Origin: a virus
Direction: 5' to 3' (one strand)
DNA: 35,724 bases
IMG/VR virus record: IMGVR_UViG_3300009180_000113
Coordinates: 1 to 35,724 of that record
Below, piece by piece: positions 30,717-35,513 of this stretch. The notes below the pieces were generated by a model, which saw only the letters and a list, made by a program, of their open reading frames with translations, was not told where the DNA came from and did not search any database. How positions within the stretch are numbered: position 1 is the first letter of the stretch; each line of letters starts with the position of its first letter. The translations under genes were made by a program, and so were the position numbers.

Positions 30717-30745
30717 AAAGAGGCTTGGTTTTCCAAGCCTTTTTT
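30717..30745 (+). terminator. Rho-independent terminator ending the tail operon
   Basis: AGGCTTGG (30721-30728) pairs with CCAAGCCT (30733-30740) around the loop tttt, extended by AAAG on the 5' side and followed by a T run to 30745. The stem also contains the TTGG of the next promoter. Confidence 0.93.
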
Positions 30746-30769: not shown

Positions 30770-32056
30770 ATGCACGCAATTATTGAAACATCTCAACAAC
30801 TTAGTAGACTAAATGAACATTGTAAAGACTCGTGTTTTATTCAAATAATTTCTGGAAATGACAATTTTCATCCTAAATTAAACAACATAAGTTGTATTTA
30901 CTATAGATGTCTTAATTCAAAAGGATATATTTTTCCTATTAACCATTCAGAAACATTTAATTTAAACATTGAAGAAGTTTGGGAATTTTTAAATAAACAT
31001 AATATAATTTATGTAATAGACAAAAAATTTCATGATTATTTTTTACCTTCTTCATTAACTGTAAGTGACATTCAATTTAAATCTTTAAATAAAACAAATA
31101 AAATACTAAATCCATCAGAATATGATACACCTGCTCATACCCATTTTTACAGAGAACATTATTTTAGAAACAACATTAACAATATTATCCCAGTGGTTAA
31201 ACATCTTGAAAAATGGGAAAACGTTTTTGAAAACATAAAAGTTTACTTAGACGGAAAAGTAAATACTTGGTTTGATTATGATTACACTGGGGTATTTAGA
31301 CAAATTGAACAAATTGGAATAAAATTAACACCTACTAAATTTAATAATCATTTTGAACCACAATTTGAAGATTATTCTATCAGTAAAAATAAAATACATA
31401 CTTCATATAATCTTTATAATTTAACAACTCGTCCTAGTAATACATTTAATAATGTTAATTTCGCCGCTTTACCAAAAGATTCTGGTGCTAGAACAGCTTT
31501 AATTCCATCAAATGATTATTTTATAGAATATGATTTTACTGCTTATCATCCTTCTCTTATTGCTTCAATTATTGATTTTCATTGGACTTCTGCTCCTTAT
31601 GATCATTTATCACAACTACTTGGTGTATCAATTGAAGAAGCAAAAGAAATTACATTTAAAAATATCTATGGGGGAGTTAAACAAGAAAATAGAGACAAAC
31701 CATTCTTTAAAGAAATTAATGAATTAATTAAAAAATTATGGAATGTTTACCAACAAGAAGGACAAATTAAACTTGCTACTGGAAGAATACTACATAAACA
31801 AGATGATCTTTCTCCTACAAAAATATTTAATTATTATATTCAGTCTTTAGAAACTAAATCAAATGTAGAAATCTTAAAAAAAGTTTTAAAGTATTTGGAA
31901 AATAAACAATCAAATATTATATTATACACATACGACAGTATTCTTCTTGATTTTAATAAAGAAGATGGAATAGAAACAGTTATGGATATTAAAAAATTAC
32001 TAGAATCAACAGGTTTTACAACTAAAATGAAGAAAGGCACAACATATGGTTTTTGA
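30770..32056 (+). CDS. Compact divergent DNA polymerase, family A layout
   Basis: A 428-aa protein, much shorter than the roughly 600 residues of a Klenow-type polymerase. Residues about 25-95 resemble a degenerate 3'-5' exonuclease fold (SCIYYRCLNSKGYIFPINHS, IIYVIDKKFHDYFL), with no visible DED catalytic set. Residues 218-252 recall the family A TGRLSS-PNLQNIP-RxAF region. Motif A is EYDFTAYHPSLIA with D255; motif B is AKEITFKNIYGG with K292, F296 and Y300; then GQIKLATGRIL and NYYIQSLETKSNVEIL match the family A helix order; motif C is LYTYDSILLDF with D389. Motifs A and C also look like family B (DFxSLYPS, TDSI). The family A arginine before motif B and the motif C His-Asp-Glu are not kept. 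Probably replicates or repairs phage DNA. T4 itself uses a family B enzyme. Alternatively it could be a TV-Pol-like relative. Confidence 0.75.
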   Translation: MHAIIETSQQLSRLNEHCKDSCFIQIISGNDNFHPKLNNISCIYYRCLNSKGYIFPINHSETFNLNIEEVWEFLNKHNIIYVIDKKFHDYFLPSSLTVSDIQFKSLNKTNKILNPSEYDTPAHTHFYREHYFRNNINNIIPVVKHLEKWENVFENIKVYLDGKVNTWFDYDYTGVFRQIEQIGIKLTPTKFNNHFEPQFEDYSISKNKIHTSYNLYNLTTRPSNTFNNVNFAALPKDSGARTALIPSNDYFIEYDFTAYHPSLIASIIDFHWTSAPYDHLSQLLGVSIEEAKEITFKNIYGGVKQENRDKPFFKEINELIKKLWNVYQQEGQIKLATGRILHKQDDLSPTKIFNYYIQSLETKSNVEILKKVLKYLENKQSNIILYTYDSILLDFNKEDGIETVMDIKKLLESTGFTTKMKKGTTYGF

Positions 32057-32483
32057 TTTACCTTCTATATTTATGGGTAATACCGAGATTGATATGAAGA
32101 ACAAGCTATTTTGCTCATTTACAGCACATGAATTTTTACCTGAAGCAATAGCTACAATAACTTCACGCTATGTTATATTATATAATAAATTATTTGTATT
32201 AGAAAGTTCTCAAACTAATGAGTACTTAATAACATATAATATAGACATGGAAAAACCATTAACAGAAATTCCAGAAAATACAATCTTATTACATAGAAAA
32301 AAAGAAAGTAATACTTTGTATACAATAAATGCTTTAAATACTTTAATTAAGTCTTTAAATAATGGTGTAGCCGACCCAAATTATAAAATTACTTGGCCAG
32401 ATTATCAAAACAGTGTATTATTAACTCAAGGTGAAGATTTGAGAATAATCAATACAAAAATATTTAAAATAATTTATTTGTAA
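32046..32483 (+). CDS. Hypothetical replication-module protein, 145 aa
   Basis: Not recognised. It overlaps the end of the polymerase gene by 11 bases (ATG at 32046). In-frame ATGs at 32073 and 32094 are alternatives; the first of these lies within an ATATTTAT box (32067-32076). The sequence is mixed alpha/beta: FCSFTAHEFLPEAIATITSR, YVILYNKLFVLESSQTNEYL, NTLYTINALNTLIKSLNNG, ITWPDYQNSVLLTQGEDLRI. One cysteine, no membrane segment. A polymerase accessory role is possible from position only. Its stop lies within the left arm of an inverted repeat. Confidence 0.6.
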   Translation: MVFDLPSIFMGNTEIDMKNKLFCSFTAHEFLPEAIATITSRYVILYNKLFVLESSQTNEYLITYNIDMEKPLTEIPENTILLHRKKESNTLYTINALNTLIKSLNNGVADPNYKITWPDYQNSVLLTQGEDLRIINTKIFKIIYL

Positions 32484-32500
32484 GTTTGGTCTTACAAATA
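32475..32500 (+). promoter_or_regulatory. Perfect 10-bp inverted repeat before the SSB gene
   Basis: TATTTGTAAG (32475-32484) and CTTACAAATA (32491-32500) are exact reverse complements around the loop TTTGGT, which holds the TTGG of the next promoter. No good T run follows, so it may be an operator or weak terminator. Confidence 0.65.
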
Positions 32501-32514
32501 GGTTTTGTTATATT
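32486..32514 (+). promoter_or_regulatory. Bacteroidota-type promoter for SSB-recombination genes
   Basis: TTGG at 32486-32489 and TATATT at 32509-32514, with the same 20-base spacing as the promoters at 30725 and 35496. The ATG follows at 32533. The decamer tgttatatta (32506-32515) is identical to that at 35516-35525. Confidence 0.75.
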
Positions 32515-32532: not shown

Positions 32533-33396
32533 ATGGATATTAATGCAATAAAAAATCGCTTGAACACTTTACAAAACAAAGGTAAAGGTGGTTCACAAAG
32601 CAAAGAAGAAAGAGCTAAGAACTTTTGGAAACCAACAATTGGTAAACAATTGATTCGTATTGTTCCTTCCAAGTTTGACAAATCAAACCCATTTAAAGAG
32701 GTGTATTTTCACTACAATGTAGCTAATCGTAGTATGATTAGTTTAACTAATTGGGGTGAAAAAGATCCAATTGTTGAGTTTGCTTCTCAACTTCGTAAGT
32801 CTTCAGACAAAGAAAATTGGCAGTTAGCTAAAAAAATCGAACCAAGTATGCGTGTATTTTTACCTGTTATTGTAAGAGGTGAAGAAGAAAAAGGCGTTCG
32901 TTTGTGGGAATTTGGAAAAGCTATGTACCAAGAATTGTTAAGTATGGCTGCTGATGAAGACATTGGGGATTTTTCTGACATCTATGAAGGTCGTGATTTG
33001 ACAATTGAAACAGTAGGCCCAGATGTTACTGGAACTAAATTTAACAAATCAACAGTTCGTCCAAGAACAAAACAAACTCAATTGTCTGATGATTCTACTA
33101 AAGCTAAATTATGGTTAAATGAACAACCTGACATTTTAAGTCTTTACAAGAAAATGGACTATGAAGAAATGAAAACAATTTTGTTGAATTGGATGAATCC
33201 AGAATCAGAAGAAGTAAGTAATGACACTACTGAAGAAATAGTAGAAACATCTAAACCTACTACTACTTATTCTACTCCAATTAAGAAAAAATCAAGTTTT
33301 GATGAAGATGAATTTGATGCTCTTTTTACAGAATCAACTCCAAAATCACCATTTAAAGAAGACGAAGACGACAATGATCTTCCTTGGGAAAAGTAA
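32533..33396 (+). CDS. 32: Single-stranded DNA-binding protein (T4 gp32-like)
   Basis: A 287-aa protein that would coat single-stranded DNA during replication and recombination. The gp32-like pattern includes FWKPTIGKQLIRIVPSKFDK (residues 31-50), PFKEVYFHYNVANRSM, VRLWEFGKAMYQELLSMAAD and GRDLTIETVG, then a linker and a strongly acidic C-terminal tail ending DEDDNDLPWEK, typical of SSB tails that recruit partners. Unlike T4 gp32 (301 aa), it contains no cysteine at all, so the gp32 zinc site is absent. UvsX follows 7 bases downstream, a functional pair in T4. An inverted repeat and a promoter lie upstream; T4 gp32 is autoregulated at the leader, but here that is only possible. Confidence 0.88.
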   Translation: MDINAIKNRLNTLQNKGKGGSQSKEERAKNFWKPTIGKQLIRIVPSKFDKSNPFKEVYFHYNVANRSMISLTNWGEKDPIVEFASQLRKSSDKENWQLAKKIEPSMRVFLPVIVRGEEEKGVRLWEFGKAMYQELLSMAADEDIGDFSDIYEGRDLTIETVGPDVTGTKFNKSTVRPRTKQTQLSDDSTKAKLWLNEQPDILSLYKKMDYEEMKTILLNWMNPESEEVSNDTTEEIVETSKPTTTYSTPIKKKSSFDEDEFDALFTESTPKSPFKEDEDDNDLPWEK

Positions 33397-33403
33397 TTAA
33401 ATT

Positions 33404-34492
33404 ATGGCTAAAACAAAATTAACAGAATCTGTATCTAAGGCAGTAAAGGGAAACTTTGACTTAGAATCATTTAAAAAATCAAAGTATTTAAGTAACACAT
33501 CTGTTACTTTTAAAGAACAAAAATGGATTCCGCTTAGTACAGCATTTCAAGATGTTTTGTCTTTGCCTGGTATTCCCATGGGACATATCACTGTTCTTCG
33601 AGGCCATTCAGACACAGGAAAAACAACAGCAATGATTGAAGCTGCTGTGTCTGCTCAAAAGATGGGCATTTTACCAGTATTCATTATTACAGAAATGAAA
33701 TGGAACTGGGATCATGCTCGTCAAATGGGCTTTCAAATGGAAGAAGTAGTAGATCAAGACACTGGAGAAGTTATTGATTACCGTGGTGATTTTGTTTACA
33801 TCGACAGAGGAGCATTGACTACTATTGAAGATGTAGCTAGTTTTATTGCTGATATGTTAGATGAACAAGCTAAAGGAAGACTACCAGTAGATTTATTATT
33901 CTTATGGGACTCAGTAGGTAGTATTCCATGTAGAATGTCAGTTGAAAAAAATTCAAATAATCCACAATGGAACGCTGGAGCAATTTCACAACAATTTGGA
34001 AACTTTATTAATCAAAAGATTGTATTGTCTCGTAAAGCTAATTTACCTTACACTAATACATTTGTAGTAGTAAATAAAGTTTGGGTTAGCCCAGCTGAAA
34101 CACCAATGTCTCAACCTAAAATGAGAAATAAAGGAGGAGATACTATGTTTTTTGATGCTAGTTTAGTAGTTACATTTGGTAATATTACTAATAGTGGAAC
34201 AACAAAAATTAAAGCAACTAAAAACGGTAAAGATGTTGAGTTTGCTAAACGTACTCGTATTATGTGTGATAAAAATCACGTAACAGGAGTTACAACTAGA
34301 GGAACAGTTACAGTAACAGTACATGGTTTTATTAATGATGATCCAAAAGCAGTAGAAAAATACAAGAAAGATCACAAAGATGAATGGTTAAATGTATTAG
34401 GATCAGGTGATTTCATTGTAGTAGAAGACACATCAGATTGGAATGAATCAAACAATAACATTCCTATGATTGGAGAAGACGAAAATGGATAA
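33404..34492 (+). CDS. uvsX: RecA-like recombinase (UvsX)
   Basis: A 362-aa RecA-fold strand-exchange ATPase. Walker A is GHSDTGKT at residues 67-74; the likely catalytic Glu is E97 in ITEMKWNWDHARQMGF; Walker B is LLFLWD at 164-169, followed by SVGSIPC; the loop region RNKGGDTMFFDAS (241-253) corresponds to the GGGTG-like loop of UvsX. T4 UvsX has 391 residues, so the length agrees. It works with the gp32-like SSB, encoded 7 bases upstream, in recombination-dependent replication and repair. Its end overlaps the next gene by 8 bases. A second Walker motif is absent, which argues against a DnaB-type helicase. Confidence 0.88.
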   Translation: MAKTKLTESVSKAVKGNFDLESFKKSKYLSNTSVTFKEQKWIPLSTAFQDVLSLPGIPMGHITVLRGHSDTGKTTAMIEAAVSAQKMGILPVFIITEMKWNWDHARQMGFQMEEVVDQDTGEVIDYRGDFVYIDRGALTTIEDVASFIADMLDEQAKGRLPVDLLFLWDSVGSIPCRMSVEKNSNNPQWNAGAISQQFGNFINQKIVLSRKANLPYTNTFVVVNKVWVSPAETPMSQPKMRNKGGDTMFFDASLVVTFGNITNSGTTKIKATKNGKDVEFAKRTRIMCDKNHVTGVTTRGTVTVTVHGFINDDPKAVEKYKKDHKDEWLNVLGSGDFIVVEDTSDWNESNNNIPMIGEDENG

Positions 34493-35513
34493 TGAATTTC
34501 AATCAATTATTGATAAACTTTCAAAAGCAAGACAGGCTAATCAGCCTGTTTTGCAACCGAAAGTATTGATAGTTGACGCAATGAATACTTTTCTACGGAG
34601 TTTTGCAATTATAAACCACATAAATCCCAAAGGAAATCACATTGGAGGACTCACAGGATTTTTAAAATCACTTGGATTTGCAATTAAACATATTAACCCG
34701 ACAAGGGTTATTATTGTCTTTGAGGGGACTGGTTCAACTCAAAATAAGAAAAACTTATATCCTGATTATAAAGGTAATCGTAAATTAAAACGGATTACTA
34801 ATTTTGATGGATTTAGTAATCAAGCAGAAGAATCAGAATCAATAGAAAATCAACTGTTGAGACTCGTTGAGTATTTACAATGTCTTCCACTAGACATAAC
34901 TTCCATCGATAGAACAGAGGCTGACGATACTATGGCGTACCTTGCAACGAAATTAGCAGATAAAAATGATGTGGTGATTATGTCTTCAGATCAAGACTTT
35001 CTTCAATTAGTAAATGACAAAATTACAGTTTATAGTCCAACTAAGAAAAAATTCTACAATCCAGAACGTATAAAAGTAGAATATGGATTACCTCCTCAAA
35101 ATTATTTACAAATGAAAATTTTATTGGGAGACAGTTCAGACAACGTTCCTGGTGTGCCTAAATTAGGACCTAAAAAATTAATTAAAAACTTTCCAGAATT
35201 AGTTGAAGAAGAAATAGTTACATTAAGTGAAATTTTAACTAAATCAGCTAAAGAAAACACAGGAATGTATTGTGCTGTTAATAATTTTAAACATCAACTA
35301 TTAATTAATGAACAATTAATGGATTTACATAATCCAAATTTATCATCAATGATGAAAGTAGAAGCAGATGATGTTATTGAACAACCTAAATCTACAATGG
35401 ACAAGTCTAAATTTTTAAGTATGTACCAAAGTGATTTATTAGGTAATGCTATTCCTAATGTAGAAAATTGGTTAATTAATGTTTTTACAAATTTATTGGC
35501 CTCTAAAAAATAA
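34485..35513 (+). CDS. FEN/RNase H-type 5'-3' nuclease
   Basis: A 342-aa protein from the ATG at 34485 (MDNEFQSIID). The frame opens at a TTG at 34470, but the ATG is preferred; it overlaps the uvsX stop by 8 bases. The metal-binding acids of the FEN/5'-exonuclease family are in place: D31 in LIVDAMNTFLRSF, E145-D147-D148 in RTEADDTMAYL, D169 and D171 in IMSSDQDFLQL, D216 and D219 in LLGDSSDNVPG, followed by the helix-hairpin GVPKLGPKKLI (223-233). Such enzymes remove RNA primers or flaps from Okazaki fragments. T4 rnh (305 aa) is the counterpart. An arch-region YKGNRKLKR (95-103) contributes positive charge. Confidence 0.88.
   Translation: MDNEFQSIIDKLSKARQANQPVLQPKVLIVDAMNTFLRSFAIINHINPKGNHIGGLTGFLKSLGFAIKHINPTRVIIVFEGTGSTQNKKNLYPDYKGNRKLKRITNFDGFSNQAEESESIENQLLRLVEYLQCLPLDITSIDRTEADDTMAYLATKLADKNDVVIMSSDQDFLQLVNDKITVYSPTKKKFYNPERIKVEYGLPPQNYLQMKILLGDSSDNVPGVPKLGPKKLIKNFPELVEEEIVTLSEILTKSAKENTGMYCAVNNFKHQLLINEQLMDLHNPNLSSMMKVEADDVIEQPKSTMDKSKFLSMYQSDLLGNAIPNVENWLINVFTNLLASKK

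Follow-up and report, generated by a model that had tools for sequence, protein, structure and literature searches.

A diverged divPolA1-type mini-polymerase, predicted from sequence, and its partner gene in a viral replication and recombination gene cluster

The window analysed here is a stretch of 35,724 nucleotides of viral DNA (positions 1 to 35,724 of the IMG/VR record IMGVR_UViG_3300009180_000113). Near its 3′ end lies a compact series of genes and signals:

30717..30744, plus strand: intrinsic terminator just 5′ of the polymerase gene (z -5.45)
30770..32056, plus strand: divPolA1-type mini family A DNA polymerase, 428 aa, ATG to TGA (assigned from the ORF, profiles and model)
32046..32483, plus strand: 145-aa partner protein, whose gene overlaps the polymerase stop by 11 nt (assigned from linkage counts)
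32471..32504, plus strand: strong hairpin, from the end of the partner gene to the gap before the SSB gene (z -5.53; no clear T-run)
32533..33396, plus strand: gp32-type ssDNA-binding protein, SSB (Pfam PF08804, 8.9e-15)
33404..34492, plus strand: UvsX/RecA-type recombinase (phrog_97, 4.9e-19; present in 109/110 loci)
34470..35513, plus strand: 5′-3′ exonuclease of the FEN or Pol I N-domain type (PF02739, 2e-33; present in 103/110 loci)

An intrinsic terminator also precedes the polymerase gene in several close relatives, and the hairpin downstream, since it is followed by no clear T-run, is perhaps regulatory rather than a terminator. Elsewhere, between positions 26 and 15350, the window encodes very large tail-fibre-like proteins with SGTSSYALTAS-type repeats, together with several smaller related ORFs.

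The product of 30770..32056 had been described in the original prediction as a compact polymerase of unusual lineage, with a family A layout and with motifs A and C resembling those of family B. The reading frame and its letters stand as described: the named motifs sit at their residues, including motif A DFTAYHPSLIA (D255, H260), I288 before motif B and motif C YTYDSI (Y388-D389-S390), and 134 residues separate the two catalytic aspartates D255 and D389, against 177 in regular PolAs. As a single sequence, the window protein retrieves nothing convincing from Pfam, PHROG or PDB, so that the family is recognised only through profiles and relatives. Indeed, a profile built from 50 mini-polymerase sequences matches regular PolAs with an hhalign probability of 96.1% (E 2.8e-9), an 11-homologue profile aligns with Klenow across motifs A, B and C (E 0.0016), and PF00476 (Pfam DNA_pol_A) is matched by 19 of the 50 family members, at best with 7e-13. 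Moreover, the AlphaFold2 model (pLDDT 93.5, pTM 0.90; the input included 50 related viral sequences) superposes on the Bst Pol I large fragment (4dqp; Z 26.0, rmsd 4.1, 398 residues) and on Klenow (1kfd; Z 24.2, rmsd 3.5, 414 residues), with Foldseek E values of about 1e-17 and leading fold matches that are all family A. The family A layout and the polymerase palm are thereby borne out, as is the unusual lineage.

The resemblance to family B, in contrast, did not survive. A family B enzyme or an A/B hybrid, as hinted by the motif letters, can be regarded as refuted, with practically no probability left to it: the likeness between DFTAYHPSLI and DFxSLYPSII is merely local and is lost in the homologues, which read DFDGYHLRLL or DYDAFHIKLL, the leading folds belong without exception to family A, and the hhalign probability for T4 gp43 and phage PolBs is 0.1% (E 0.46), as against 96% for PolA.

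Sequence comparison identifies the window protein as a new and diverged member of divPolA1, a family already described. It shares 36% identity over 96% with gp001 of Flavobacterium phage immuto, a founding member (E 2e-68), and in the tree a split with a support of 100/100 places it in the immuto clade, apart from the Mel-JY01 clade. The reservation that this might be an ordinary, already described small PolA family proved apt in its second half, the family having been described (PMC11348598), but not in its first, as divPolA1 is not ordinary. Two fecal contigs (H24 and H26) that match immuto gp001 weakly turned out to be ordinary PolAs carrying the usual glutamate.

With the homologues assembled here, divPolA1 grows from a computational family of 14 phages to several hundred viral contigs. 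Among them, Microcystis phage Mel-JY01 encodes a mini-polymerase annotated as "hypothetical protein" (PP395634.1, 50397-51623; locus L034, 9536-10762), which extends the family to a cyanobacterial phage; in the same phage the 5′ nuclease is annotated as "DNA polymerase I". A 484-kb huge phage carries another copy (LR756508.1, 240919-242235; locus L292), with the partner gene about 1.5 kb downstream. Cellular homologues amount to two MAG contigs, assigned to Rickettsiaceae (L293, 7902-9164) and to an uncultured bacterium (L294, 8001-9314), which are probably misbinned phage sequence. A podovirus record (L035, 2846-6104; MW202795.1) contains two adjacent, overlapping DNA polymerase ORFs (1659 and 1662 bases) that may represent a split PolA.

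The protein is divided into a degenerate exonuclease fold (residues ~1-135), a cut-down thumb (~187-208) and the palm and fingers (~209-428), the last of which hold the following elements in the ORF frame:

31430..31432, plus strand: R221, equivalent of Klenow R668, in the TTRPSN motif (220/220)
31532..31549, plus strand: motif A, D255-F-T-A-Y-H260, with H260 at the sugar-gate Glu position (His in 220/220)
31631..31672, plus strand: motif B region, I288-EEAK292EITF296KNIY300G301 (R754 equivalent lost; K758, F762, Y766 and G767 equivalents kept)
31928..31939, plus strand: motif C, T387-Y388-D389-S390, where regular PolAs read HDE or HDQ (Y388 and D389 in 220/220)

Profile alignments place these residues on their Klenow equivalents (R221=R668, D255=D705, H260=E710, I288=R754, K292=K758, F296=F762, Y300=Y766, Q358=Q849, Y388=H881, D389=D882 and S390=E883). 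Across 220 full-length homologues, with identity down to ~24%, R221, D255, K292, F296, Y300, G301, Q358 and D389 are invariant, and an independent scan yielded 70 further copies that agree, the exceptions being a single alignment gap at 255/260 and a single Leu at 296. Since only 27 of the 428 columns are invariant, the chance that all seven Klenow-equivalent sites (R221, D255, K292, F296, Y300, Q358 and D389) fall among them is about 2e-9, and the match is thus not fortuitous. The same invariance bears on whether the gene product is an inactive polymerase fold retained as a scaffold or loader; several pocket residues do depart from those of regular PolAs, but a dead scaffold would have no need of the metal-binding Asp pair, the Lys, Arg, Gln and Tyr, all kept in 220/220, and we consider this explanation very improbable.

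The departures themselves were compared with a non-redundant set of 53 regular PolAs, made up of viral enzymes together with Klenow and T7. At the sugar-gate site (Klenow E710), divPolA1 has His in 220/220 homologues, and in every further copy covering the site, whereas regular PolAs have Glu in 53/53. The H881 site is Tyr in 220/220 as against His in 52/53, and the R754 site, Arg in 52/53 regular PolAs, is not Arg in divPolA1. Position 390, the third residue of motif C, is Ala or Ser among the 220 homologues, an unremarkable change given that this residue already varies among regular phage PolAs (Q 28, E 21, S 2, A 1). With replacements at three sites, those of the sugar-gate Glu, the O-helix Arg and the motif C His, the enzyme may differ in substrate and fidelity from a DNA gap filler.

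It is conceivable, then, though rather doubtful, that the gate histidine relaxes or reverses sugar selection, so that the enzyme would incorporate ribonucleotides or make a short RNA, be it a primer, a mixed strand or a transcript. Family A has given rise to RNA polymerases before, those of the T7 type. Apart from the strict His-for-Glu exchange, it speaks for this possibility that the Glu position governs sugar choice, as Taq E615G, together with other changes, accepts rNTPs (PMC4215692). However, a histidine takes up much space and could still keep out the 2′-OH, and a DnaG-type primase exists in relatives. The pocket residues F296 and Y300, which also shape sugar selection, are kept as well. 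As for a role as sole primase, it was judged unlikely, since immuto encodes a DnaG-type primase, as does the closest complete relative.

The original prediction had also noted an exonuclease-like segment, of which the fold is real and the DxE carboxylates are absent. The structural alignments cover residues 1 to 428, from which it follows that the N-terminal part retains an exonuclease-like fold; nevertheless, beta-1 (residues 22-29) has no conserved D/E and the conserved N-terminal acids are limited to D100, D/E61 and E147, whereas D355/E357/D424/D501 are kept in 51/51 regular viral PolAs covering those sites. On these residues, the mini-polymerase is predicted to be exonuclease-dead, with proofreading lost. 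A second exonuclease encoded beside the primase was considered as a proofreader in trans and set aside; it looks PD-(D/E)XK/Cas4-like, with matches below curated cut-offs. Furthermore, the IEQIGIKL and IHTSY motifs are only 22 residues apart, against ~110 residues of thumb in Klenow, and the model shows a single short helix between residues 181 and 239, so that the thumb, judging from its length and the predicted secondary structure, is apparently truncated. The forced global profile alignment is unreliable in the exonuclease-thumb part and was excluded from the claims on both. Lacking the sugar-gate Glu, the O-helix Arg, the motif C His, a full thumb and an active exonuclease, the window protein is not a regular PolA replicase.

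A loose active site is suggested by the missing proofreading, the reduced thumb and fingers and the lost O-helix Arg, as would suit a translesion or mutagenic repair polymerase. To this idea we give little credence, because nothing tested indicates lesion bypass and because the fixed position of the gene in a replication and recombination operon is unlike that of a dispensable repair gene.

That position is indeed highly regular. The gene directly 3′ of the polymerase is homologous to the 145-aa protein in 183/190 polymerase loci; conversely, in an IMG/VR search that started from the partner, the polymerase lay upstream in 76/76 loci with upstream sequence. Homologues of both occur in the identical 6 of 50,697 phage records (four immuto records, LR756508 and Mel-JY01), and the partner outdoes the polymerase in conservation, at 56% versus 36% identity to immuto. 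The 145-aa gene is thus a strict partner of the mini-polymerase. Searches with the partner yielded neither a convincing family in Pfam, PHROG or PDB nor a significant Foldseek match, and a fold search (VIA) reached no Z above 6.1, where ACT-like folds and T-antigen origin-binding folds came out level; identity with T4 RegA was rejected (hhalign 0.8%). Further downstream, of 193 loci with sufficient sequence, 187 have the SSB gene after the polymerase, and SSB, recombinase and 5′ nuclease are all present there in 103/110. In the phage collection, the FEN subfamily of the window (at least 36% identity) leads the matches only in the 6 records that contain the polymerase. Both the neighbourhood and the co-occurrence may in part reflect the common descent of these phages.

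A further replicative polymerase had been anticipated for this genome, and, as the window is a 35.7-kb fragment, its presence is deduced from relatives, the close ones indeed having a full PolB. In the closest relative (L002/G001, 88% identity), a contig of 179,715 bp, PolB lies at ~66-68.6 kb, and a DnaG-type primase, a DnaB helicase and a clamp loader homologue are also encoded, so that replication and priming would be covered there without the mini-polymerase. A search of 15 long contigs carrying the mini-polymerase gene revealed a full-size second polymerase in 14: a regular PolB in seven (frames of 838-897 aa, one split over two frames) and a regular PolA in seven others (778-796 aa), while in one 114-kb fragment neither PolB nor PolA was seen. 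The split PolB (G014, the contig of L238, 53555-55532) consists of two frames, 610 and 306 aa long and separated by a gap, perhaps due to an inserted element, an intein or a frameshift. In the mini-polymerase tree, which has three well-supported clades, PolA was found with one clade only and PolB only with the other two. Both the second full-size polymerase and the persistence of the mini-polymerase gene across this change of replicase point to an accessory enzyme and not to the replicase.

These same data can be read as the mark of a second replisome polymerase, charged with a defined share of bulk replication such as the extension of lagging-strand primers. The conserved place in the SSB-recombinase-FEN-helicase operon and the presence of the gene whichever regular polymerase family accompanies it would fit such a role, and Yutin et al. 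suggested from its neighbours that the family is "involved in replication" (PMC11348598). The small size, the reduced thumb and the absence of proofreading argue against it, however, as does the full replicase that relatives retain with homologues of primase, helicase and clamp loader, and we hold a bulk share to be unlikely.

On balance, we favour the view that this divPolA1 member is a competent gap-filling polymerase, accessory to the full-size replicase. The mini-polymerase would be a catalytically competent, two-metal family A enzyme without proofreading and with most of the thumb gone, which would hold DNA weakly and carry out distributive short-patch synthesis at gaps left by lagging-strand maturation and by recombination-dependent replication. 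The SSB and the recombinase would present the template to it, the separate 5′ nuclease would remove primers or flaps, playing the part of the N-terminal domain of Pol I, and the 145-aa partner would provide a primer-template grip or a recruitment beyond the reach of the reduced thumb. Taken together, the set could be seen as a split phage version of the polymerase-plus-5′-nuclease activity of Pol I. In this gap-filling account, it is the activity, the filling of gaps and the function of the partner that we infer.

A bolder combination, speculative and rather doubtful, would unite divPolA1 and the 145-aa protein as the two obligate subunits of one polymerase whose sugar pocket is rebuilt (His gate, motif C Tyr). 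Such an enzyme would make RNA or ribonucleotide-containing strands at intermediates of lagging-strand synthesis or of recombination, with the partner standing in for the lost thumb. If true, it would give family A a function that phage polymerases are not known to have. The extra polymerase persists regardless of the regular replicase of the phage, and the invariant sugar-gate change and the obligate partner gene offer two handles at the bench. Both bear on what makes a second polymerase worth keeping for a large phage and on whether a separate subunit can supply a thumb.

Among known systems, T4 gp43, the family B enzyme that is replicative in T4-like phages, has gp43-like counterparts in the closest relatives of the window and no profile-level similarity to the window protein. 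The barbavirus-type divPolA2 (AUR84708) is likewise an extra, small and exo-less family A polymerase beside PolB, although with another N-terminal domain and a variable neighbourhood (PMC11348598). Its motif A stretch resembles that of divPolA1 but retains the gate Glu (VYDFKAFE), and its match to the family profile is weak (6% probability over 51 columns around motif A). With the PolAs of Klenow, Bst and T7 gp5, the window protein shares the fold (Z 24-26), the Asp pair and the Lys, Arg, Gln and Tyr, and it differs from regular PolAs in lacking the exonuclease carboxylates and in having a thumb of ~22 residues instead of ~110, to which divPolA1 as a whole adds the changes E710 to H, R754 lost, H881 to Y and E883 to S/A.

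The closest comparison is with divPolA1 itself, described in 2024 from sequence in 14 phages, immuto among them (Yutin et al., Virol J 21:200, PMC11348598). The description reports palm residues retained, a truncated thumb, a lost exonuclease Asp, and a gene that is extra to a regular family A, B or C polymerase with replication genes downstream, the role in replication being proposed from these neighbours (PMC11348598). A literature search found no measured activity of, and no later experimental work on, any divPolA1. The window protein shares with the family the palm catalytic residues D255, D389, K292, R221, Y300 and Q358 (220/220), the truncated thumb, the lost exonuclease carboxylates and the downstream SSB, UvsX and FEN genes. 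The main text of that description nowhere mentions a gate residue, a histidine, ribonucleotides or a partner (PMC11348598), and what the present analysis adds beyond it is the invariant gate His, the motif C Tyr and the obligate 145-aa partner.
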